From a virus: 25,726 bases of DNA. Below are positions 6,178 to 25,726 of this stretch, in pieces; within the stretch, counting starts at the first letter, position 1, and each line of letters starts with the position of its first letter. The translations under genes and the position numbers were made by a program. The notes beneath the pieces are model-generated. The model was not told the DNA's origin and did not search any database. It was given only the letters and a program-made list of their open reading frames with translations. The DNA lies in IMG/VR virus record IMGVR_UViG_3300009182_001873, positions 1-25,726 of that record; one strand, 5' to 3'.

Positions 6178-6471
6178 TTATTTTCCTACAGGTTTTTCGC
6201 CAGTTAAGTACGGCTTACTAAACCACAGTTGAAACCATTCTGGGGTTCCGGGACGAATATGATGCTTACGCTCTAGCTCTTGTTTGCTCATACCAGTAAC
6301 ACTGATATTACTGCCTTGATTAGCACGGTATTCGTGTAGTCTAGCTTCGCCACCTAACCCGCCTAGTCCTGCTAGTGCTTTCATTTCGTGTATAGGATCA
6401 CTCGGATCTAAATAGCAGTCATCTGAACTATCTTGATTTAAATCCTGCGTAGTAATTCTATACTGTTTCAT
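6178..6471 (-). CDS. Small conserved phage protein (PGTPEWFQLWFSKPYLTGEK type)
   Basis: A 97-residue protein of unknown function. The start is taken as the ATG at 6471, because it overlaps the Dps-like gene's stop as ATGA, a typical coupling; an upstream in-frame ATG at 6495 would lie deep inside that gene. The C-terminal segment PGTPEWFQLWFSKPYLTGEK is a short aromatic motif I have an impression of from other T4-like aquatic phages. The middle is Gly/Leu-rich (ALAGLGGLGGEARLHEYRAN). No signal peptide, membrane helix or catalytic motif is visible. It is translationally linked between the Dps-like protein and the MKMHELDEG protein. Confidence 0.6.
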   Translation of the reverse strand: MKQYRITTQDLNQDSSDDCYLDPSDPIHEMKALAGLGGLGGEARLHEYRANQGSNISVTGMSKQELERKHHIRPGTPEWFQLWFSKPYLTGEKPVGK

Positions 6472-6908
6472 TTTAAACTTGACCTCAGCATCCAACTGTG
6501 CTTCTTATGTGCATCCTGTCGATCAGCTAAGAAATTACTCAGCCCGTGGTCACCATGCGCTTCAGCCATATCAAACGTAATGCGAAATATCTCAGCCATT
6601 CTGTCACTATCTGTTAATAATTCTTTTAGCATACCGCTCCAATCTGGTACATGATTTTCATCTTCTACCACAGTCAGCATACTGAATTTTTGTAAACTAG
6701 CCGGTGTATAAATCTGTAGAGCACGTAGATGTTCCGCAAACGGATCAATTGCACCATATACTTCCTCGTATATGGTTTGAAACAGTTCGTGTAACTGACC
6801 AAACAACGGTCCTTCTACATTCCAGTGAAAGTTATGCGCTTTTAGATAAAAACTAAATTCACTAGCAAAAGCTGTTTTTAATGATAAGTGATATTTGTCG
6901 TGTTCCAT
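6468..6908 (-). CDS. dps: Dps-like ferritin (DNA protection during starvation family)
   Basis: A 146-residue four-helix ferritin-fold protein. The Dps signature AHNFHWNVEGPLFGQLHELF is present at residues 24-43, followed by the D-P-F-A-E-H ligand segment. By comparison with Listeria Dps, ferroxidase ligands H28, H40, D55 and E59 are conserved, whereas the position four after H40 is Gln44 rather than Asp/Glu. The C-terminal helix (DAHKKHSWMLRSSLK) matches the family. Dps dodecamers oxidise and store iron, and many bind DNA and reduce peroxide damage. It overlaps the upstream nucleotidylyltransferase stop (TAATG) and the downstream gene (ATGA), so it belongs to the same operon. It has no leader like its neighbours. 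Use during infection could be protecting phage or host DNA from oxidants. Confidence 0.9.
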   Translation of the reverse strand: MEHDKYHLSLKTAFASEFSFYLKAHNFHWNVEGPLFGQLHELFQTIYEEVYGAIDPFAEHLRALQIYTPASLQKFSMLTVVEDENHVPDWSGMLKELLTDSDRMAEIFRITFDMAEAHGDHGLSNFLADRQDAHKKHSWMLRSSLK

Positions 6909-9842: not shown

Positions 9843-10472
9843 CTATGCTTTAACGATACGTTCAATCTTTGTTATTACGCCACCGAGATGCATTTTAGTC
9901 AACAGTAGTGTATTGTCGCCTGTTACATAGAAGTGTGTTCCGCCCCAACTTCTTGATTTTCCTAGCTCTTTTTTGCAACTTTTAGTCAGTTTTAGTTTGT
10001 CACGGCCAGCCGCCCATTCAACAAACGCTTGATAATCTTGGTTAGTTTTACCTAAAGTCACTCGATAATCGTAATTTGTTTTAGGCATTATTATAGTATT
10101 AGCCGCTAGAGGTGAATCTTTTGGTGGCTCAGATATATATTTCACATTGCTACTATCTAATTTAGACAGCAGAGTAACATAATCAAGGTTGTTAGTATAT
10201 ACGCTGACCCACGGAGATTCTACCCTAATTTCTATATCCTTCATTTTCTTCAAGGCAGTTGCAAGTCTAATAGCATAATCTAGCTGATCTTGAGTTTTGA
10301 TATTATTAATACGCCACACATCGTCGGGCTTTTGAAGTAAAGAAGTTTTACTTAGTAGTTTTAATGCAGTTTCCATATCACCGCTTCTAAACGAACTAGC
10401 GCCAGAACATATCAACACAATTTTGTATTGATATGTTCCTTTAAATAAACTTCTAGTTGTTTTGTACAACAT
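9843..10472 (-). CDS. Conserved phage protein of unknown function
   Basis: A 209-residue basic protein with no recognised enzyme motif. Stretches such as MLYKTTRSLFKGTYQYKIVL, DIEIRVESPWVSVYTN, TIIMPKTNYDYRVTLGKT and the C-terminal RSWGGTHFYVTGDNTLLLTK, HLGGVI-KIERIVKA resemble a conserved family found in T4-like aquatic phages that I know only as hypothetical. The alternation of short hydrophobic strands with charged turns suggests an alpha/beta protein with a recent or ancient internal duplication not excluded. Its start at 10472 overlaps the last 20 bp of the ClpA-like gene, so it is coupled to the chaperone operon. The 72 bp after its stop hold a late promoter for the next operon. No signal peptide or membrane segment is visible. 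Confidence 0.65.
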   Translation of the reverse strand: MLYKTTRSLFKGTYQYKIVLICSGASSFRSGDMETALKLLSKTSLLQKPDDVWRINNIKTQDQLDYAIRLATALKKMKDIEIRVESPWVSVYTNNLDYVTLLSKLDSSNVKYISEPPKDSPLAANTIIMPKTNYDYRVTLGKTNQDYQAFVEWAAGRDKLKLTKSCKKELGKSRSWGGTHFYVTGDNTLLLTKMHLGGVITKIERIVKA

Positions 10473-12726
10473 CTTCTAAGTTGCTCTCAATAGCCAGTAA
10501 TGCAATTTTAGATACTTTTGGTTTAGCAATTAACGAAATTGCATCGCCATCAACACTAATAGTGACCCAGCCGCCATTTTTAAGATCTCCAAACAACATC
10601 AATCGAGCAAGGTCGCGTTTAATTTCCTTGTCAATAACACGCTGTAACGGACGAGCACCCATCTTAGGATCAAAGCCTTTTTCGATGAGCCAATTAACTG
10701 CTTCCTTATCGATCTTAACTCGGATACCTTTATCTTTAACTTGGTCTTTAAGTTGATCTATAAACTTATTAACAATTTTTATCATTGTTTCTTTTCCAAG
10801 TTTATTAAATGTAACAACACCATCTAAACGATTGCGGAACTCCGGAGTTAAGAATTTCTTCAAATCAGCATCGCTATAGTCTTTATCTTGCTTACCAAAT
10901 CCAATAGCATTTTTGTCTGCTGATTGTGCTCCGGCATTAGTAGTAAGGATAAGAACAATATTACGGCAGTCAGCTTTTTTGCCATTTGATCCGGTAATAA
11001 ATCCGTTATCCATAAGCTGTAGCAATACAGTTATTACATCTGGATGCGCTTTTTCAATCTCATCTAGCAACAGTACAGCATTAGGTGCTTCTTGAATACT
11101 GGTAATTAGTTGACCCGCATTTTCTTCAAATCCAACATAACCGGGAGGGCTGCCGATCAACTTACTGATACTGTGTTTTTCTTGATATTCACTCATATCA
11201 AAGCGCAGTAACTTAACACCCAAGTTTTTAGCAAGTGACTTAGCAGTTTCGGTTTTACCAGTACCAGTCGGCCCCATGAATACAAACGATCCAACGGGTT
11301 TATTTTCTGTTTTAAGTCCAGCCTGTGCAACAACAATCTTATCAACGATTTCGGTGATAGCAAGTTCTTGCCCATACACTTCTGTTTCAAGTTTAGTTTG
11401 TAAACTAATTAAATTAACACTTTCAGTTTCTGAAACTTGCTCTTCCGGCATATTGACCATCTTAGCTAGTTCGAATTGAATTTCACGCTCGCCGATAATG
11501 CGCTCATCAGCTAGTTTGAGATTGAAGCGTGAGCAAGCTACATCAATTAAATCAATGGCCTTGTCCGGAAGTTTTTTATCTGTTTGATACTTAACTGACA
11601 ATTTAATTGCCGCATCAATTGCATCGTCCTTGATCTTAACATTATGGAATCCTTCGTAGTATTTCTTAATACCTTTAAGGATCTGTTTAGTAACTTCTGT
11701 TGTAGGCTCGTCAACAGTAATGCGTTGGAAACGACGCATGAGCGCACGATCCTTTTCGAAGTGCTTACGATATTCTTCCCAGGTAGTCGATGCTACAACT
11801 TTAATATTGCCTTTGCTTAGTGCAGGCTTCATCATGTTGGCAAGATCGTTCGCTGAATTGCTTGCCGACCCAGCACCACTAATCATGTGTGCTTCGTCAA
11901 TAAACAAGACAGTCTTACCTTTCTTTTGTAGGGCTTTAATAACATGCTTAAAGCGTTCTTCAAAGTCTCCGCGATATTTAGAGCCAGCTAACATAGCACT
12001 GATGTCTAGATTATAAACTGTATACTCTTTCAAGAAATCAGGAACAGCACCATTTACAATATTATGAGCCATGCCCTCGGCGATCGCAGTCTTACCTACA
12101 CCAGGGTCACCAACTAAGATCACGTTGTTTTTGCTACGACGACCTAGTGCTAACGCAATATTTTCTAATTCGTCAACTCTGCCAATAACTGGATCGATTT
12201 TGTTTTTCTTAACTTCTTGATTCAGATTAGTAGTAAATGCCTGAAGGGCTTTATCACTATGCGAATCAGCTGGGCTATCGTCCGGACCATTTTCCATATT
12301 ATTATTTAAATATTCAGCAAATTTATCTTTATCGATATTAGCTTGTGCAACAAAAAAGTGCGCCCAACTACGTTTCTCGCCCATCATAGCCAAGAATACA
12401 TCCGTTGGTTCAATACGCTGTCGCCCGTTGAATAGGACTTGAGTAAACGCCCTATTAAGTACACGCTCTACACTTTGAGTTTTCTTAGGTTTAACCACTA
12501 CATCTGGTACTGTAATTTCACTACATTTATTATGTAGATAATCTTGTAGGTTTGTTTTAAGGGAATTAGCATCAGCGCCGAATCCTTGAATACAGTTAGT
12601 AAACCCATCTTCTGCAAGCATAGCAAACAACAGATGTTCTATTGTTAGATATTCGTGATGAAGTTTTTTAGAAGTTTCTATAGCTCTTTCAAAGACTGCT
12701 TGAAGATTATCGCTAGGTTCGACCAT
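10453..12726 (-). CDS. clpA: ClpA-like AAA+ unfoldase
   Basis: A 757-residue ATPase with the ClpA layout. Clp N-domain spans about 1-140. D1 has Walker A GDPGVGKT (206-213), pore loop KYRGDFE (250-256) and Walker B VLFIDEAH (273-280). D2 has Walker A GPTGTGKT (485-492), pore loop GYVG (529-532), Walker B VLLLDE (551-556) and the sensor/Arg-finger segment TPEFRNRLD (627-635). There is no long middle domain, so it is ClpA-type rather than ClpB/ClpC. IGF at 608-610 sits where ClpA carries its ClpP-docking IGL tripeptide, so it could feed substrates to host ClpP; no clpP is seen here. Start ATG 12726 shares a base with the deformylase stop (TAATG). Confidence 0.95.
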   Translation of the reverse strand: MVEPSDNLQAVFERAIETSKKLHHEYLTIEHLLFAMLAEDGFTNCIQGFGADANSLKTNLQDYLHNKCSEITVPDVVVKPKKTQSVERVLNRAFTQVLFNGRQRIEPTDVFLAMMGEKRSWAHFFVAQANIDKDKFAEYLNNNMENGPDDSPADSHSDKALQAFTTNLNQEVKKNKIDPVIGRVDELENIALALGRRSKNNVILVGDPGVGKTAIAEGMAHNIVNGAVPDFLKEYTVYNLDISAMLAGSKYRGDFEERFKHVIKALQKKGKTVLFIDEAHMISGAGSASNSANDLANMMKPALSKGNIKVVASTTWEEYRKHFEKDRALMRRFQRITVDEPTTEVTKQILKGIKKYYEGFHNVKIKDDAIDAAIKLSVKYQTDKKLPDKAIDLIDVACSRFNLKLADERIIGEREIQFELAKMVNMPEEQVSETESVNLISLQTKLETEVYGQELAITEIVDKIVVAQAGLKTENKPVGSFVFMGPTGTGKTETAKSLAKNLGVKLLRFDMSEYQEKHSISKLIGSPPGYVGFEENAGQLITSIQEAPNAVLLLDEIEKAHPDVITVLLQLMDNGFITGSNGKKADCRNIVLILTTNAGAQSADKNAIGFGKQDKDYSDADLKKFLTPEFRNRLDGVVTFNKLGKETMIKIVNKFIDQLKDQVKDKGIRVKIDKEAVNWLIEKGFDPKMGARPLQRVIDKEIKRDLARLMLFGDLKNGGWVTISVDGDAISLIAKPKVSKIALLAIESNLEDVVQNN

Positions 12727-13211
12727 TATTTAAATTTCCTTTGTTTTTTCTGTGCCATTTTTAATTTCAAATCACTTACATATTCTGTAAATGTTATTCC
12801 ATCTAAGTGATCTAATTCGTGTTGAAAACAACGAGAGTCGATTCCTTCAAGTTCTATTATACATTGTTTTCCTGCGCTGTCAAGATACATGGCAGTAATT
12901 TTGTCACTTCTTTTGACTTTAAGCCAGAGATTTGGAAAACTTAAACACCCTTCGTCAGCTTGTACATCTGCGTTGTCGCCGACTAGAATAGTAGGATTGA
13001 AAACCCCAAGTTCTCTACCGTCTTGTAGTTTCATCACAAATACTCTACGCAACAACCCAACTTGATTGCCAGCAAGTCCGATACCGTTATGTGCTCGCAT
13101 GAGTTCAAGCATTTCTCTTTCTATAACATCCGCATTAACATGGTTTTTAAAATCCCAACGTTCTGCTTTTTGTTTAAGAATTGGATCAGGATCTTGAATT
13201 AATTTCAACAT
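12726..13211 (-). CDS. def: Peptide deformylase
   Basis: A 161-residue metalloenzyme that removes the formyl group from the N-terminal Met of new proteins. All three family motifs are present: GIGLAGNQ (43-50, a variant of GxGxAAxQ), EGCLS (87-91) and HELDH (131-135). Metal ligands would be C89, H131 and H135 with E132 catalytic. Length is that of compact phage and bacterial enzymes; the short C-terminus ends in a basic tail (KKQRKFK). It overlaps the DnaJ-like gene by 26 bp at its start and touches the ClpA-like gene at its end, so the three are one operon. Phage deformylases in cyanophages are thought to support rapid turnover of host or phage proteins; the same is inferred here. Confidence 0.95.
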   Translation of the reverse strand: MLKLIQDPDPILKQKAERWDFKNHVNADVIEREMLELMRAHNGIGLAGNQVGLLRRVFVMKLQDGRELGVFNPTILVGDNADVQADEGCLSFPNLWLKVKRSDKITAMYLDSAGKQCIIELEGIDSRCFQHELDHLDGITFTEYVSDLKLKMAQKKQRKFK

Positions 13212-14043
13212 CTAGTGCTTTAAGTTTTTCTATTAATGATGGATCTGTAATTGCCGGTGTTTTAATATTTACAACAATTACTAGCCGACCTTTCTGACCA
13301 GTATTAATATTAGGGAATCCGTGCCCAGAGCTTGCAAATTCAGATCCAGCTTCAATACCTGGACGAATATCAAGATCTATTTTTTGGCCGGTTATAGTTT
13401 TAACACCTTTACTACAACCGATCATAGCCTCGATCGGTGTTATGTACACTGTAGTATACATATCGTCTCCGGCACGCCTAAAGTTGCTATCAGGAAGCAC
13501 AATAATAGTTACATTTAAATTTCCTCTCGGAGCATTAGGAACACTATCGTCACCTAATCCATTATATCGTATAGTTTCACCATGACTTATTCCAGCCGGA
13601 ACATTAATAACTACAGTCTGCGTTTGCCCGCTCGGCATTTTATAATTTGCTTCTAGTTGTTTTCCTAGATAGCTGTCTAATATTGAAACTTGACATTGGA
13701 TGTTTAGATCTCGATTTCTGCGCATCTGCGCATGTCCGCCGCCGAACATGCTAGTAAATGGGTGCCCTTGCGGGAATCCTTGTCCAAACATCGCGCCAAA
13801 TGGATCAAATCCATCTGTAGTAAATCTTACTTGCGGGCCACCTCCGAACATACGTTGTTGGTCGTATTCAGCTTTCTTTTGTGGGTCGCTTAGGTTATCG
13901 TATGCAACGCTAATATCTTTGAATTTGGCTTGATCACCACCCTTGTCCGGGTGATGTTTATTAGCCAAGCTTCGGTATGCTTTTTTAATTTCATCTGGGC
14001 TAGCGTTTTCGCCAACACCTAGTGTTTGGTAATAATCTGTCAT
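13186..14043 (-). CDS. DnaJ-like co-chaperone (type B, no zinc finger)
   Basis: A 285-residue Hsp40. Residues 1-65 are a J-domain with HPD at 31-33 (KHHPDKGG), which stimulates DnaK ATPase. A Gly/Phe-rich linker (67-105, with GGGPQ, GQGFPQGHPF, MFGGGH) follows. The remainder fits the two beta-rich substrate domains of CbpA/type B DnaJ (AGISHGETIRYNGLGDDSVP, RGNLNVTIIV, EAMIGCSKGVKTITG), without the CxxCxGxG zinc region. It is preceded by a consensus sigma70 promoter embedded in the previous operon's terminator, so it opens a unit with deformylase and ClpA. No strong Shine-Dalgarno at the usual distance; GGAG lies 14 bases upstream. It probably works with host DnaK. Confidence 0.93.
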   Translation of the reverse strand: MTDYYQTLGVGENASPDEIKKAYRSLANKHHPDKGGDQAKFKDISVAYDNLSDPQKKAEYDQQRMFGGGPQVRFTTDGFDPFGAMFGQGFPQGHPFTSMFGGGHAQMRRNRDLNIQCQVSILDSYLGKQLEANYKMPSGQTQTVVINVPAGISHGETIRYNGLGDDSVPNAPRGNLNVTIIVLPDSNFRRAGDDMYTTVYITPIEAMIGCSKGVKTITGQKIDLDIRPGIEAGSEFASSGHGFPNINTGQKGRLVIVVNIKTPAITDPSLIEKLKALDVEINSRS

Positions 14044-17730: not shown

Positions 17731-18450
17731 ATGAGTAAACAACGAGTGAAAAAGCGTTTTACATCAGAAGTTAACATAATTGACTTTCAACCATATCTTC
17801 CTCAAAAGAAACAGCGTGTGAGTCTACATGCACGAAATCCAAATCAAAAAGTATACCTTGACAAGCTACAAGATGAAACTAAAAGTATCATTTTAGCTAT
17901 CGGGCCAGCAGGCACGGGTAAAACTATGTTGGCAGTGCAAGTAGGAGTTAAGCTGTATCAAGAAGGTATTGTTGATAAGATAATTGTAACAAGACCCGCC
18001 GTCAGTGTAGATGAAGATTTAGGATTTTTACCAGGTACGCTAAATGAAAAAATGGCACCTTGGACTCGTCCTATATTCGACGTTCTAGGAGAGTATTACC
18101 AGCAAAAAGACATAGCTAAAATGCTAGAGGATGGAACCATTGAAATAAGCCCACTCGCGTACATGCGTGGACGCACATTTAAAAACGCATACATTGTTGC
18201 AGATGAATGCCAGAACACCACAGTCAATCAAATGAAAATGTTACTAACTCGTTTAGGCGATGGTAGTAAGATGGTTGTTACGGGTGACTTGGCTCAGGCT
18301 GATCGTGTTAGTGATAATGGTTTAATAGATTTTTGTAACTTACTCTCATCTAAACCTGCTCTAAAACATATCGACATAGTACAATTTGAAGCTAAAGACA
18401 TTGAACGCCATAATGCCGTGAAGGAGGTGTTAGCGGTTTATGGAGACTAA
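17731..18450 (+). CDS. phoH: PhoH-family ATPase
   Basis: A 239-residue P-loop protein, the only plus-strand gene of the window. Walker A GPAGTGKT is at 58-65 and Walker B AYIVADE at 153-159, within the PhoH-specific context VTRPAVSVDEDLGFLPGTLN (86-105) and PLAYMRGRTF (141-150), and a later TGDLAQADR. PhoH proteins are NTPases related to the superfamily 1 helicase core; phage copies are very common in marine viruses, but their role (RNA processing, phosphate stress) is unsettled. ATG at 17731 has GGAG nine bases upstream. It has its own promoter and ends at a bidirectional hairpin, so it behaves as an independent gene inserted between two minus-strand operons. Confidence 0.95.
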   Translation: MSKQRVKKRFTSEVNIIDFQPYLPQKKQRVSLHARNPNQKVYLDKLQDETKSIILAIGPAGTGKTMLAVQVGVKLYQEGIVDKIIVTRPAVSVDEDLGFLPGTLNEKMAPWTRPIFDVLGEYYQQKDIAKMLEDGTIEISPLAYMRGRTFKNAYIVADECQNTTVNQMKMLLTRLGDGSKMVVTGDLAQADRVSDNGLIDFCNLLSSKPALKHIDIVQFEAKDIERHNAVKEVLAVYGD

Positions 18451-19254: not shown

Positions 19255-20169
19255 TTACAGATGTCCGAGTCTAATTAGTGTTGCGGCTAGGTTAATCTCT
19301 GGATCCATGACTAGTGTATGATCCACAAGACCTTGCTTGATAATGAGAATAGCTTTATCTTGCTTATCTTCTGCACCAAAGATTTCTACATTGTCATACA
19401 GCCAGCGATAAATTTCTTCCATTTCTTCTGGACGAGCTTGACTGCATACAAGTTTACGTGCTTCAGCAATTTTTCCTGCGGTAAACAATGCTACCATTTC
19501 GACCCGATAATCAGTACTGTCAGCCGCTGTTTCTACAATCTTTAGTCTACCGTCCATACTGTTCATCTGAGCATTATTGATTGTTTTACGCAGGTCTGGA
19601 TAAGTTGCTTTAACATAGATGTCTAATGTATCTAGATCAAATTCTACATTCTCTTCTACAAGGATTGTAGCAACACGAGCTGTAAACTCAGTCAAGTCAG
19701 TTTTTTCAATATGCATCTTCTGGCACCTGCTGTGCAACGCCGGAAGTATCTTATTAGGATAGTTGCAAGTTAGGATAAATCTAACAGAGTTACTGTAGTC
19801 TTCCATTAGATTACGTAGTGCAGGTTGTACTGAATTTGGATTCATGAAATCTGCTTCGTCAATTAGTACAACTTTAAAATCGCCAAATGGCATAGTTTGA
19901 CAAAATCCAATCAGTTTGTCGACCCACTCAACCTTACGTGCTTCTTTACTGCCGTTAGCATATAGCACATCACAATCTTGCACACCTAACTTGTTAAGCA
20001 AAATTTTAGCCAGTGTAGTTTTACCTACACCTGCATTACCACTGAACAATAAGTGAGGAATACTTCCTTCCTTGAGCCAACTTTCAATTTGATCACGTTG
20101 ATGGTCATCTTTGAATACATAACCGTCTAAGGTATCTGGTCGATATTTTTCAACCCATAATTCTTTCAT
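19255..20169 (-). CDS. 44: Sliding clamp loader large subunit, T4 gp44-like
   Basis: A 304-residue AAA+ protein that loads the sliding clamp for the phage polymerase. WVEKYRP at 5-11 is the hallmark of RFC/gp44 subunits. Walker A GNAGVGKT is at 44-51, Walker B VLIDEAD at 101-107 and the arginine-finger SRC motif at 147-149 (ALHSRCQKM). Length is close to T4 gp44 (319 aa). The start is the ATG at 20169, which overlaps the preceding stop as ATGA; longer in-frame reading to 20217 has no initiation signal. No sliding clamp (gp45) or small subunit (gp62) is recognised in the window. Confidence 0.95.
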   Translation of the reverse strand: MKELWVEKYRPDTLDGYVFKDDHQRDQIESWLKEGSIPHLLFSGNAGVGKTTLAKILLNKLGVQDCDVLYANGSKEARKVEWVDKLIGFCQTMPFGDFKVVLIDEADFMNPNSVQPALRNLMEDYSNSVRFILTCNYPNKILPALHSRCQKMHIEKTDLTEFTARVATILVEENVEFDLDTLDIYVKATYPDLRKTINNAQMNSMDGRLKIVETAADSTDYRVEMVALFTAGKIAEARKLVCSQARPEEMEEIYRWLYDNVEIFGAEDKQDKAILIIKQGLVDHTLVMDPEINLAATLIRLGHL

Positions 20170-20429
20170 ACTAGTTCCTCGGCAATGCCTAATACTTCTG
20201 CTACTACTAACAACCACCCGGCCGCTTGTAGATAAGGATTCATTTCTAACCAGCCACCGCCAGCAAGTGCTAGCCCAGCGGCGATTCTAACGCCACTTTT
20301 AATTAGGCTAATATATAAATGTTTTTTTGGATCTGGGTGTGATGATTTAGGACTTTCTGTTGTATCAACAGAATCCAAAGCTTCTACTGCTTTTTTAATA
20401 TCTTCAACTGCTTCAGCATGTGTACTCAT
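20166..20429 (-). CDS. Small membrane protein of unknown function
   Basis: An 87-residue protein. The start is the ATG at 20429 (MSTHAEAVEDIKKAVEALDS), preceded by AAGGAGATG and placed just downstream of a strong promoter; a longer reading to 20477 would begin upstream of the predicted transcript start. The N-terminal 40 residues are polar and acidic. Two hydrophobic segments follow, about 46-62 (IKSGVRIAAGLALAGGGWL) and 67-84 (YLQAAGWLLVVAEVLGIA), consistent with a helical hairpin in the inner membrane. It is the first gene of the early unit with the clamp loader, and its stop overlaps the clamp loader start (ATGA). A membrane link for replication or host interference is possible, but nothing identifies it. 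Confidence 0.7.
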   Translation of the reverse strand: MSTHAEAVEDIKKAVEALDSVDTTESPKSSHPDPKKHLYISLIKSGVRIAAGLALAGGGWLEMNPYLQAAGWLLVVAEVLGIAEELV

Positions 20430-20497: not shown

Positions 20498-20890
20498 TTA
20501 CAAACCGGCGGATGGCGGACGGAAGTCGAATTCCGGCGGACTTAGGTCGATAGCAGTCAACCCAGATGTTATATCGTTTGGCTTTTCATCAGCTGACATT
20601 AACATACACTTAATATCAACCCTGTGTATCTTACGCTTGGTTCCATCGGGCTCGACTATTTCAATAGCTCTAGTCCAACGACCGTGTTCAAGCAAGATCC
20701 ATTCACCAACTTTCACATCTTTTTGATCTTTTCCAATAGCGTAGACACGACCCCAACGAGGTTTGATCCCGCTATCTTTACCATCATCGCTAGGTATGTA
20801 AATACCACCGGCGCTGACTTGTTCATCGAAACTCATATCACTGACAAATACATTGTCGCGAATAGGAACAATTTTGCCGTAAACAGCCAT
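20498..20890 (-). CDS. GroES/gp31-type co-chaperonin
   Basis: A 130-residue co-chaperonin. The GroES fold is seen as a conserved start (KIVPIRDNVFVSDM, 6-19), a mobile loop about 20-44 with the GroEL-binding tripeptide in AGGIYIPSD (27-35), then RWGRVYAIGKD (45-55) and VGEWILLEHG (61-70), matching the GEVVAVG and VGDRVLF positions of GroES. The C-terminal extension (about 100-130), Pro-rich and ending SAGL, is absent from bacterial GroES. T4 gp31 replaces GroES for folding of the major capsid protein by host GroEL; the same is inferred here. Its ATG overlaps the upstream stop (TAATG), and a strong terminator follows. Confidence 0.88.
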   Translation of the reverse strand: MAVYGKIVPIRDNVFVSDMSFDEQVSAGGIYIPSDDGKDSGIKPRWGRVYAIGKDQKDVKVGEWILLEHGRWTRAIEIVEPDGTKRKIHRVDIKCMLMSADEKPNDITSGLTAIDLSPPEFDFRPPSAGL

Positions 20891-21991: not shown

Positions 21992-22576
21992 TTAGTATTC
22001 GCCGCTCAGTTTGATATATACGTTAGCTCCGGCATCAACAGACCATGCTTCAATGACTTCAAGTTTAGTTGAACCAATTGCACCAACTGTGAATGGGCTA
22101 AATCCAGTTGCAAAACGCACAACTCCGCCGTTGGCAGTGGCAAATACTGGTGTTCTAACAGCAATAGTGTCGCCTTTCAAAATAACTCTAATAATTCCGT
22201 ATGCAGGTACCGCAGGCCAGCCGGTAAAAGTTAATGTAGCATTTCCTGCGAGTGTAAATTGTTGTATAGATCCGTTGGCCAAGTTAATATTTGCAGTAGT
22301 AGATACAGTTCCACCGGGGTAGAATATACCGTAAAATTGATTATGTGTACCGTTTGTGATAGAACTTTGTAACAGATTATTTACTACAGGAGTGGTACCA
22401 GTTGCTAGATCTGCTTTTAATAGTGTATTAGTTTGTAGTGCAGTAATTTCAGACTTGGCTACTCCTAATCCCGCTGAAATAGCAGTAAAGTTGTTACGAA
22501 ATCCCTGACTATCGTTGTCCTGCCCTGCTACAGGGTAAGTTGTGTTAATTGAGATATAGTTTATTTGACTTGTCAT
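21992..22576 (-). CDS. Tail/fibre-type structural protein
   Basis: A 194-residue protein. The N-terminus TSQINYISINTTYPVAGQDN followed by DSQGFRNNFTAISAGLGVAK and EITALQTN is a recurrent start of structural proteins in T4-like aquatic phages, with a short helical bundle after it. Residues about 65-194 are beta-rich (GNATLTFTGWPAVPAYGII, RVILKGDTIAVRT, KLEVIEAWSVDAGANVYIKL), typical of a trimeric fibre or baseplate-decoration head. The ATG at 22576 overlaps the stop of the large fibre gene as ATGA, so the two proteins are coupled and probably assembled into the same structure. A late-promoter motif lies 30 bp upstream. Confidence 0.7.
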   Translation of the reverse strand: MTSQINYISINTTYPVAGQDNDSQGFRNNFTAISAGLGVAKSEITALQTNTLLKADLATGTTPVVNNLLQSSITNGTHNQFYGIFYPGGTVSTTANINLANGSIQQFTLAGNATLTFTGWPAVPAYGIIRVILKGDTIAVRTPVFATANGGVVRFATGFSPFTVGAIGSTKLEVIEAWSVDAGANVYIKLSGEY

Positions 22577-25500
22577 ACGGTTATCCTATCATTTCTAAAT
22601 ATAAGGTATTTATCGCCTAGATAACCACTGACAGAATCTATTGTATATCTGTCTACAGTATAATCTAATACTTGAAAATCAAATTTACTAAATTTGATGT
22701 TTAGCAAAATATCGTTAGCAGTTCCTACTTTACAGAAGCAGATAGGAATAGCTAGGGTATACCCTTGTTCTTGTTTTTGCCCAGTTTGTATAGTTCTCAT
22801 CCAAAGCGGCAAATAATTGCGCTCACTTAGTCCTACACCGGATAATCTTGATTGCCAGTTTGCTATACTATTGGGGAATATCGTATTTGGATTAGGATTA
22901 GAGACTTCGTATCCTGTACTGTCGGCTGTTATTATAGGCTCTGGTCGAACAGAATTTGGAGCATCTAGATTTAAGACTGCGGCAGAGTTATTCCAGAAAT
23001 TATTGCTACTATCAACTGTTATAGCATCTGAACTTATTCCAAATTTATTAATTATCTTATTTGGAAGTTTTCCACTCGCTGGACTTAGCGGGTCTATCAT
23101 GTTTATATAAATTACTTCGTATAGATCCAACCCTGTAGCAGGATCTACAGCCCTTGACGATGACACAGAGCCAAACTGGAATCTTTTACGTTTGTGATTC
23201 AATCCCATAGCCCCAATATATGCCGCTGCCTCTTTAGTTTCAATCCCGCCATATACTAGCATTGATAATGATGATTGAATACCAAAGTTTTGATCATTTA
23301 TTCTATAAATGCTACTGGGTGTAAAGATGGTTGAGTCATTAATAAATCCCTTCCATATGGCTCTTTGGTCTTGTTTTAAGAATGGTCGAACTACTATGTT
23401 ACTATAAGAAGTAGTATTAGGTGTATCAATGGTCAACGTAAATGTTCTAGTACGGGAGCTGTAACCAAATTGATCTCGAGCTTCAACAGTAAACTTATAC
23501 GTATAGTCAAACGTTGCGATACCTTTATCAAACGTAGTGGCACTGGTATCAAATCTAATCAAACCCAATGAACCGTTTAACGGATTATAATACTGATTAA
23601 CTTTACCAATAATTTCTCCGTCAAGATTTAATGTTAGTCCAGGCGGTAGTGCTCCGTCTACGATAGAATAGATTACAATAGAATTAGGAACAGATGATAC
23701 TGCGCTGATGTTTAATGTTGAATAGTAATCTGCATGCAATGTTTCTAAAATACTATTAGTTTTCCACGTAACAGTACTGTCAATCTCACCGATGATGGTT
23801 ACTGTAAATGTTTTATATGCAACTGTAGTTTCGCCTTTCTCTCCAATTCTTGTAGCAGTCAGTGTAAAAGTATAGAGCTTGCTGATAGCAGGTTGATATG
23901 GAACTATGCCATATACCTCGCCAGTGCCTGCATCAAATGTAGTACCTGGCGGAAGTTTGCTTAATGATCCCATATAAAACGGAACCATATCGGGAAGTGT
24001 CATTACTAGCCCAGTTGTTAGAGTTAATCGATATGCGCCACCGCCTAAATCAGCTACTACGGAAATTCTATATAGTTCACCAGTTGCATTTGGAATATAG
24101 TTTGCAAAACTAATGTATTGACCAAATAGCGGCGGACTTGATGCGTTAGTAATAGTTAGACTATGACTGCCGATAGTGTTATCTAGATTAGTTAGTTGCT
24201 TTGTAATTGCTCGTATTTCTTGATTTGTTGGAGAAAGATTAAAAATAACATTACTATTGTCGTATAAGACAATTGGCAGGGTGATATAGTTGTTTGCTCT
24301 AAGAACACCTAAGTTTGAATCATTAATCCATACTGGTTCGCGTAAGTATGTTGCATCAGCAGTAAAATTCCCAGCGCCACCGTCTAACGTTGTTGAGTCT
24401 GCACGGAATTGATCTGTACCTACAACAAATATTTTAAAAATTCGTTGAGCATAATTGACACCATCAGTTAGTGTTACACGAAATTGATAATTAGAATTGA
24501 TACTGTTTGGCGGATGTAACGGACTATTGTAGTCATAAAACACTCCATCATACTGATAACTGTCAAAACCGTCATTGGAAGTAGTACCAAAATCAAATGC
24601 CACGCCATCGTAATAGCCATCGTCGTATGTGCCTGAGCCGTCGATCGCTGTGATTTTATAAGTAGGTAGTATAAATCCCGATAGTCGTCCTGAACTTGAC
24701 AGCGTAAGTCCTTTAGGTAGTACTCCGTCATCACTGGCTATAAAGTATGTTAGTTTACTACCGACTACAGTGTTCAAATCAAATGCTTCAATTTGATAAT
24801 CAACATGTGTATCGTCAAGTACATATAATTGCTGGTGGACTCCGATCGGCAATGGTCCAGCGGCAGTTACAAAAACTGGTATATTAGAACCTGTAATAGT
24901 TATAGTAAAAGTTCTATCGGCTATATCTGTTCCGTTTGTAGCTCTGATACAAAATTTATAAGTTGTATCGTTACTAACAATGTATGGACTTCCAGTAATT
25001 GTGCTACTTTGTAGTATCAATCCAGGCGGTAATGATCCACTAATCACTGTAAATGTTATTCCAGCAGTATCGGACAATGGAGGAGGACTAGTGCTAGGTG
25101 ATCGAGCAACTATGCTTGGAACAGCGCCTGAAATAAGGTCTGCACGTTCTACTGCTACAAATGCATCAGCCTGCATGTGTACTGTATCAGTATTGCGTAA
25201 AATTATATCAGATAAGGTAGCACTATTAATCCAAGTTAAATCTGTTGGATTCCATGGTTGATTTTGATACCAAGATTGATCACCATCTCGTAATCGAATC
25301 ATTTGATCTGCTATGATAGCACGGAATGTCGGGCCTACCATTGCTCCTGGATAGCGATCCTCTGCAAGACCACCAACCCATAGATCTATGTCATTGATAT
25401 TAACATAAGCTGACTGTAATGCATTGGCTACAGTTACATCGCTAGTAATTTGACTAAAGCTAGTATATGCTGAAAATCCTAATGCTATACGCATTTGATT

Positions 25501-25726
25501 TAAACTTGGAAGACCTAAGTCACGCCCACGCTGTATATTTGTTGCGGCAAGATCTAATGCTGCCGGAGGATCGTTAAGCAAGTTACGTAAGTCTTCAATA
25601 ATATATACATCTAATTTGTTAGATATATCGCTGGCTAATTTTCTTAAGAATCCGTTTGCGCCACCGTTGCGTTCATACTGTGCAGGTGTTAAGAAAAACG
25701 CTTGTCCTAAAGTTAAAGATTCTGTA
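22573..25726 (-). CDS. Large tail/fibre-type protein with haem peroxidase domain and Ig-like repeats (N-terminus cut by window edge)
   Basis: The frame is open to the right edge, giving 1050 residues and no visible start. Residues 1-198 in the window are the C-terminal part of an animal-type haem peroxidase: LDLAATNIQRGRDLGLPSLN (58-76), DIDLWVGGLAEDRYPGAMVG (112-131), then GPTFRAIIADQMIRLRDGDQ, and DIILRNTD (173-180). N63 matches the Asn that holds the proximal His in myeloperoxidase; the family's usual RDHG is RDLG here. The proximal and distal His lie upstream, outside the window. About four He_PIG-like modules follow (LPPGLILQS, LPKGLTLSS, LPPGTTFDA, LPPGLTLNL, each ending in an RTFTITI-type strand). 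The C-terminal domain (about 760-1050; ERNYLPLWMRTIQ, DYTVDRYTID, GDKYLIFRNDRITV) is of a type seen in T4-like aquatic-phage tail proteins. Confidence 0.85.
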   Translation of the reverse strand, partial: TESLTLGQAFFLTPAQYERNGGANGFLRKLASDISNKLDVYIIEDLRNLLNDPPAALDLAATNIQRGRDLGLPSLNQMRIALGFSAYTSFSQITSDVTVANALQSAYVNINDIDLWVGGLAEDRYPGAMVGPTFRAIIADQMIRLRDGDQSWYQNQPWNPTDLTWINSATLSDIILRNTDTVHMQADAFVAVERADLISGAVPSIVARSPSTSPPPLSDTAGITFTVISGSLPPGLILQSSTITGSPYIVSNDTTYKFCIRATNGTDIADRTFTITITGSNIPVFVTAAGPLPIGVHQQLYVLDDTHVDYQIEAFDLNTVVGSKLTYFIASDDGVLPKGLTLSSSGRLSGFILPTYKITAIDGSGTYDDGYYDGVAFDFGTTSNDGFDSYQYDGVFYDYNSPLHPPNSINSNYQFRVTLTDGVNYAQRIFKIFVVGTDQFRADSTTLDGGAGNFTADATYLREPVWINDSNLGVLRANNYITLPIVLYDNSNVIFNLSPTNQEIRAITKQLTNLDNTIGSHSLTITNASSPPLFGQYISFANYIPNATGELYRISVVADLGGGAYRLTLTTGLVMTLPDMVPFYMGSLSKLPPGTTFDAGTGEVYGIVPYQPAISKLYTFTLTATRIGEKGETTVAYKTFTVTIIGEIDSTVTWKTNSILETLHADYYSTLNISAVSSVPNSIVIYSIVDGALPPGLTLNLDGEIIGKVNQYYNPLNGSLGLIRFDTSATTFDKGIATFDYTYKFTVEARDQFGYSSRTRTFTLTIDTPNTTSYSNIVVRPFLKQDQRAIWKGFINDSTIFTPSSIYRINDQNFGIQSSLSMLVYGGIETKEAAAYIGAMGLNHKRKRFQFGSVSSSRAVDPATGLDLYEVIYINMIDPLSPASGKLPNKIINKFGISSDAITVDSSNNFWNNSAAVLNLDAPNSVRPEPIITADSTGYEVSNPNPNTIFPNSIANWQSRLSGVGLSERNYLPLWMRTIQTGQKQEQGYTLAIPICFCKVGTANDILLNIKFSKFDFQVLDYTVDRYTIDSVSGYLGDKYLIFRNDRITV
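22607..22614 (-). promoter_or_regulatory. T4-type late promoter motif GATAAATA
   Basis: CGATAAATACCTTATATT on the minus strand, 30 bp before the ATG at 22576. It lies inside the last codons of the large fibre gene (GDKYLIF), so chance coding is possible, but position and sequence match the other copies. Confidence 0.45.

Follow-up and report, generated by a model that had tools for sequence, protein, structure and literature searches.

A haem peroxidase domain inserted into a tail-region protein of jumbo T4-superfamily phages

An animal-type peroxidase domain in a tail-region ORF

Whether an animal-type haem peroxidase can be a genuine part of a phage tail protein, and what it would do there, is the question raised by a viral contig of 25,726 nucleotides (IMG/VR record IMGVR_UViG_3300009182_001873; this whole stretch of DNA is called the window). 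An open reading frame (ORF) that runs off the contig end encodes a tail-region protein, whose first 198 amino acids (aa) represent about the C-terminal 40% of such a peroxidase. Residues 3-189 of the ORF matched positions 337-530 of the PF03098 (An_peroxidase) profile with an E value of 4.8e-48 (164 bits; cut-off, 25), and immunoglobulin (Ig)-like He_PIG repeats followed the peroxidase part in the profile search (E 2.7e-21). An earlier note on this DNA had placed peroxidase motifs at 25132-25726; the motifs and the coordinates were correct, and the strand is minus. A six-frame PF03098 search of the window record gave a stop-free match at 25159-25719 on the minus strand (E 1.3e-51), and the same search matched none of 14 control genomes. 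The top phmmer matches of the window part in the Protein Data Bank were 8s6c (E 5e-42), deposited under the name lactoperoxidase but being the bacterial CyanoPOX, and peroxinectin A of Dictyostelium (DdPoxA, 6erc; E 1e-30). By its sequence, the domain is a member of the animal haem peroxidase family, within the peroxidase-cyclooxygenase superfamily.

The remainder of the protein was found in a 223-kb contig (L003), which is 100% identical to the window across the shared 10,595 bp and continues past the window end. Its complete protein has 1,397 aa and a full-length PF03098 match (E 3e-114); the N-terminal part of the peroxidase, without which the reading of the earlier note would have failed, is thus present. 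All four full-length proteins scanned contained complete matches (profile 3-530 or 4-530; E 2.5e-110 to 4.6e-116), scoring 370-389 bits against the cut-off of 25. Scans of viral contigs detected 19 loci with the 198-aa query and 26 with the whole domain. Pooled, the two scans gave 30 contigs besides the window, with 23 sample ids in the contig names, a count that includes some partial contigs and possibly two halves of one gene. There were 18 non-redundant full-length peroxidase domains, of 502-508 aa.

The window and three other contigs (L002, L005 and L006) stop at the identical base, and L020 stops 122 bp farther. The stretch near the window end contained one variable base among the eight contigs compared, and the 223-kb contig reads through it. 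Because this stretch is nearly identical among the variants, the shared contig end is taken to be a branch of the assembly graph and not a chimera.

Conservation of the active site

Active-site residues were assigned by alignment with solved peroxidases and from the site descriptions in excerpts of the CyanoPOX (PMC11776367) and DdPoxA (PMC5787809) papers. Invariance was counted over 24 non-redundant sequences, 18 of them full length, each site being covered in 21-22. Wherever covered, the distal Q116, H120 and R237, the haem-linking E240, the proximal H331, N410 and R413 were invariant, as were T174, W176 and D178, the Ca2+ ligands of a distal Ca2+-binding loop. The distal His and Arg and the proximal His, which the earlier note had singled out for checking, are therefore retained. 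Only N410 and R413 lie inside the window; the distal Gln, His and Arg, the Glu and the proximal His are upstream, outside it. The excerpted description of DdPoxA gives a distal Gln97-His101-Arg233, Glu236 and a proximal His325-Asn403-Arg406 (PMC5787809), to which the phage residues correspond by alignment. At two further positions considered for the Ca2+ loop, 180 was S in 16 sequences and T in 5, and 121, which aligns with MPO Asp96, was E in 11 and D in 10 (n = 21).

The phage domain departs from chordate family 1, that is, myeloperoxidase (MPO) and lactoperoxidase (LPO). The two haem-ester acids of that family are Asp94 and Glu242 in MPO numbering, and phage N410 aligns with MPO Asn421. In the covered phage sequences, the Glu was kept in 21 of 21 and the Asp was replaced by Thr in 21 of 21, and the position of Met243, the sulphonium residue of MPO, was occupied by Asn in all 21. 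DdPoxA has Ile at the position of the second haem-linking acid and a single haem ester, according to the excerpt (PMC5787809); by analogy, a one-ester haem would be expected in the phage domain.

The ratio of nonsynonymous to synonymous substitution rates (dN/dS; NG86 method) of the peroxidase domain had a median of 0.17 and a range of 0.06-0.21 over the 19 pairs, out of 105, for which dS was usable, indicating at the sequence level that the domain is under purifying selection.

Insertion into the first Ig-like domain

The earlier note had described a peroxidase followed directly, in the same frame, by Ig-like repeats. The frame is indeed the same, but the simple fusion was not borne out, as the peroxidase is embedded in the first Ig/cadherin-like domain. 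Its approximately 505 aa separate the first strand from the remainder of this N-terminal domain, and the alignment places the insertion point between 'LPV' and 'TFxVISGxLPPG'. Among 110 distinct members of the tail-region family, the first strand ran uninterrupted into the first Ig-like domain in 74, and 19 carried the peroxidase; 12 had other N-terminal arrangements (L068 perhaps only a late start), and 5 were incomplete. The 19 of 110 is not a frequency, because part of the sample had been collected by searching with peroxidase sequences. The window protein belongs to the family by its shared first strand, first Ig-like domain and C-terminal domain.

In the AlphaFold2 (AF2) model of the protein, the mean predicted local distance difference test score (pLDDT) was 40.7 over the whole model. 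Residues 1-30 and 571-628, on the two sides of the insertion, were modelled with confidence (pLDDT 81-93 per ten-residue block), whereas the peroxidase part was not. The best structural match aligned 84 residues to a contiguous cadherin-like stretch of SraP (residues 574-663, which are outer limits of the aligned range only) with a Z score of 9.9, values under 8 possibly reflecting only a common arrangement. The 84 aligned residues exceed the second piece, and therefore both pieces of the interrupted domain are needed for the match. We consider it almost certain that the domain is inserted and that its active site is intact.

Other modules were found at or near the same place. A beta-rich module of about 80 aa lies at or near it in L062, L065, L074 and L167, and a Pfam search of the L062 module found no family. 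Several members have a 'GTTDF' stretch at or near this place, and the N terminus of L160 has a CBM5/12 match barely above the cut-off (27.0 versus 26.2 bits). The N termini of L067 and L081 also hold other modules at or beside the insertion point.

Animal-type peroxidases of Chloroflexota seem to be circularly permuted within one ORF (L122 and L131 in G010 C180, L133 in G255 C193 and L135 in G183 C206). In the permuted order, the stretch from about profile position 116-125 to 504 comes first and is followed by 1-115; L135 is a fragment at a contig end, with one stop read through in its first piece. A natural permutation would agree with fold ends that lie near enough for insertion into a loop.

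The C-terminal domain of the tail-region protein was widespread, being present in at least 445 of 599 matching stretches in the first viral-contig scan and in 406 of 426 in the second; 80 relatives were taken from each scan. Its AF2 model was of low confidence (mean pLDDT, 53.9) and leaned in VIA-align comparisons to 2H-phosphoesterase-like folds (Usb1, LigT and Acb1); the match to Usb1 had a Z score of 10.4 with 163 aligned residues and 7% identity. A conserved HxS/T pair was sought in this domain and none was found, and for this reason no function is assigned to it.

Presence, absence and exchange of the peroxidase

One contig (L022), which matches the window at 98% identity along 10.4 kb, carries the tail gene without the peroxidase. 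A PF03098 search of its 102-kb record, in which 1.3 kb separates the gene from the end of the contig, gave no match.

DNA identity in 30-codon blocks changed along the gene in several pairs. Between L003 and L004 it was 92-100% in 16 of the 17 blocks of residues 61-570 (83% in the other), compared with 64-79% before this range and 43-74% after it. For L121 and L106, identity was 77-100% up to residue 570, including the first strand, and then 43-67%; for L112 and L119, it was 80-100% in residues 61-600 and then 57-82%. The opposite was seen in L104 and L014, with 90-100% from residue 661 onward; the latter half of the peroxidase domain was at 70-83%, and most of its first half at 83-100%. The peroxidase was more alike than the C-terminal domain in 103 of 105 pairs (means, 74% versus 57%). 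In the 55 pairs formed by the 11 loci that had their neighbouring genes compared, its identity also exceeded that of the DnaE-like protein 44 times and that of the GroES-like protein 45 times. By these comparisons, the peroxidase insertion is optional and is swapped between phages as a cassette.

Phage affiliation and probable virion placement

The phages are jumbo members of the T4 superfamily, of a freshwater type, and are related to Phosso, Atu_ph07 and CBB. The major capsid protein (PF07068) was found in three of nine records searched, including the 223-kb record. Among the 30 listed of 2,486 matching records, the capsid protein of the latter was nearest to that of Sinorhizobium phage Phosso (72.7%), followed by jumbo phages of the proteobacterial hosts Vibrio, Pectobacterium, Cronobacter, Erwinia and Pseudomonas (67-70%). 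The tail gene is preceded by long ORFs that appear fibre-like by eye (cluster c0), one of which, in L003, has an Mtd_N match (E 2.3e-8). The 194-aa gene downstream belongs to protein cluster c2, with 13 members among the 16 loci compared. PHROGs searches of the four full-length proteins gave weak matches to families of unknown function in three and none in the fourth.

Homologues of the tail-region protein in Phosso (XYS97278) and Atu_ph07 (AUZ95088) carry an S8 subtilase (E about 1e-36); a scan with the C-terminal domains of these two proteins gave one locus. The order ClpA, DnaJ, PhoH, clamp loader, tail gene is common to the window and Atu_ph07. Counting from ClpA (gp292) and DnaJ (gp293) to the tail fibre gp327, the Atu_ph07 homologue is gp329. 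The excerpted proteome study of Atu_ph07 describes a cluster of virion proteins at coding sequences 284-329 (PMC6102473), of which gp329, so counted, is the last gene. Because the homologue stands at the end of the virion cluster and the gene order is shared, the tail-region protein is probably located on the virion.

Novelty and nearest relatives

The earlier note knew of no phage virion described with such a peroxidase, and a tblastn search of 50,697 phage records with the peroxidase domain gave no match at an E value of 0.01. No peroxidase family was matched in PHROGs. In the titles and abstract beginnings of the matches listed from the open-licence literature, no peroxidase in a phage virion was described. 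Term searches of the available text found neither 'phage' nor 'virus' in a review of the superfamily (PMC4420034) and no 'peroxidase' in an overview of jumbo phages (PMC7824862); in PMC13390420, haem peroxidase is named only in the references.

The best plasmid match had 37.5% identity (Limimaricola). The nearest cellular sequences found were the Chloroflexota L131 and L133, with 51-52% identity over the best-matching piece, in a sample consisting of one locus from a strict-pattern genome scan and of further sampling in Chloroflexota only (29 of 301 genomes with a match). In a tree of 22 rows, the 17 phage rows grouped together (97/99) and adjoined two permuted Chloroflexota rows (fork, 86/85); the outgroup branches were long.

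Gene content of the window

The features of the window are listed in Table 1. Among the proteins that the phage encodes there are a ClpA-like protein, peptide deformylase, DnaJ and a GroES-like protein.

Table 1. Features of the tail gene and its surroundings in the window
Feature	Position	Strand	Remarks
Tail-region protein with N-terminal peroxidase	22573-25725	minus	ORF of 1,050 aa, open at contig end; 5' part beyond
C-terminal 198 aa of animal-type haem peroxidase domain	25132-25725	minus	PF03098 profile 337-530
Codon of proximal-side Asn N410 (NIQRGRD)	25537-25539	minus	Hand-computed from residue numbers
Codon of Arg R413	25528-25530	minus	Hand-computed from residue numbers
Second piece of interrupted cadherin/Ig-like domain 1	24883-25059	minus	Hand-computed; first ~35 residues precede the peroxidase, beyond the window
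Further He_PIG Ig-like repeats	23470-24882	minus	Profile search
Conserved C-terminal domain of tail-region protein	22576-23469	minus	Scans of viral contigs
Next gene, 194 aa	21992-22576	minus	4-base overlap with tail gene stop; conserved neighbour
GroES-like protein	20498-20890		
Clamp-loader-like AAA+	19255-20217	minus	Syntenic neighbour
PhoH	17731-18450	plus	Syntenic neighbour
DnaJ	13186-14043	minus	Syntenic neighbour
Peptide deformylase	12726-13211	minus	Syntenic neighbour
ClpA-like	10453-12726	minus	Syntenic neighbour
Dps/ferritin-like protein	6468-6908		PF00210, E 1.5e-21

Proposed function and alternatives

We favour, with some reserve, the reading that these jumbo T4-superfamily phages bear a swappable peroxidase on a modular tail or adhesin protein of the virion, where it would oxidise the host surface. 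The phage domain is likely to have peroxidase activity; host-surface oxidation as its selected role is put forward more tentatively. The case is evenly balanced for a first virion-borne oxidoreductase, a haem enzyme that would attack, cross-link or label the host surface via H2O2-driven oxidants and would be plugged in and removed as a cassette at a recurrent insertion site within an adhesin domain.

No signal peptide was seen by eye in the protein, and CyanoPOX was obtained haem-loaded when made in E. coli, according to the excerpted source; for these reasons, the domain may take up haem of the host while in the cytoplasm. It would then be displayed on the virion tail and use ambient or host H2O2 as the oxidant. 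Iodide, thiocyanate or phenolic/tyrosyl groups could be oxidised at the host surface or slime, these being substrates of the relatives CyanoPOX and DdPoxA in the excerpted descriptions. The barrier might thereby be locally remodelled for adsorption or penetration; the corresponding protein of related phages bears a protease.

Alternatively, a virion-borne peroxidase may clear H2O2 around the particle or the infected cell and so protect phage or host. The H2O2-consuming active site is intact, and many of these phages encode the peroxide-related Dps, in which the earlier note had seen an oxidant theme. However, Dps occurred about as often in records lacking the peroxidase (4 of 7, among them the peroxidase-less sister record G006) as in those carrying it (7 of 11), all of these records being possible fragments, which lends no support to a link between the two. 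An adhesin-like tail protein would also be an odd place for bulk detoxification, and enzymes of the superfamily need an electron donor. Peroxide defence is therefore an unlikely role.

It is improbable that the haem domain serves to bait host haem-uptake receptors for docking of the tail, with catalysis secondary. The same first-Ig stretch does hold other modules in other phages, one with the CBM5/12 match, and potential iron-binding domains have been reported for the tail fibre of a phage (PMC11705849), but an invariant distal Gln-His-Arg is needless for bait. A peroxidase released in lysates could make oxidants harming competitors or grazers, as DdPoxA is fast on iodide and thiocyanate and is called antibacterial in the excerpt (PMC5787809). 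This too has little probability, since the domain is attached to a tail-region protein and not secreted in free form, and no export signal was seen by eye.

The earlier note had also considered that the domain is kept only as an adhesin scaffold. A large non-catalytic domain retained as an adhesin or spacer would fit its optional presence in the close relative L022 and the other modules at or beside the site, including the one beta-rich module scanned, in which no enzyme family was found. This explanation is nevertheless disfavoured and quite improbable, because the catalytic and Ca2+ residues are invariant among domains that average 74% pairwise identity and dN/dS is low (about 0.17; 0.06-0.21). 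Artefactual joining of a bacterial peroxidase to a phage tail gene, to which the ends of the window contig and several others inside the domain might point, was rejected as having a negligible probability, given the 30 other contigs with their 23 sample ids, the 18 full-length domains, the read-through inside the 223-kb contig and the same cassette in several backbones.

Several observations weigh against oxidation of the host surface by a virion-borne peroxidase. The peroxidase is dispensable in at least one close relative (L022). MPO Asp94 is replaced by Thr in 21 of 21 sequences and Asp96 by Glu in 11 of 21, and because of these replacements halide oxidation by the phage domain may be weaker than that by MPO. 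The geometry of the active site is derived from sequence alignment, as the AF2 model is weak over the peroxidase. The C-terminal domain has only 25% identity to that of Phosso and 24% to that of Atu_ph07. Finally, in 15 of 15 cases the domain had a higher GC content than the remainder of the gene (mean, 0.413 versus 0.368); mean GC at third codon positions was alike (0.253 in the domain and 0.242 in the rest), giving no sign that a high-GC donor contributed the domain very recently.

If a tail protein bears an intact haem peroxidase, redox chemistry would be added to phage entry, infection would be tied to the levels of peroxide and of halides or phenols in the water, and phages would carry host-derived haem cargo. 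With a natural pair that differs in the domain and with the cassette swaps, the function can be tested directly; they also mark a site at which new domains enter a phage adhesin.

Comparison with known systems

CyanoPOX (8s6c) and DdPoxA (6erc) belong to the same superfamily over their full length (E 1.7e-82 and 8.8e-64, respectively) and share with the phage domain the distal Gln-His-Arg, the Glu, the proximal His-Asn-Arg and the distal Ca2+ site. They differ in having no phage tail protein around the peroxidase, and CyanoPOX has kept the haem-linking Asp that is Thr in the phage domain. The Chloroflexota peroxidases L131 and L133, although the nearest cellular sequences found, appear circularly permuted and lie outside a phage tail gene.

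The proteins of Atu_ph07 and Phosso resemble the peroxidase-bearing protein in their homologous C-terminal domain, their He_PIG repeats and an enzyme on the N-terminal side, and Atu_ph07, in which gene order was compared, has the same neighbouring genes. In these two phages, a protease takes the place of the peroxidase, and the enzyme is N-terminal, outside the first Ig domain. Optional enzyme modules that are exchanged between phages are also found on virion adhesins in the depolymerases of phage tailspikes and tail fibres. To our knowledge, these virion enzymes are hydrolases or lyases, which cut polymers by hydrolysis or elimination, whereas the phage peroxidase would be an oxidoreductase that needs haem and H2O2.

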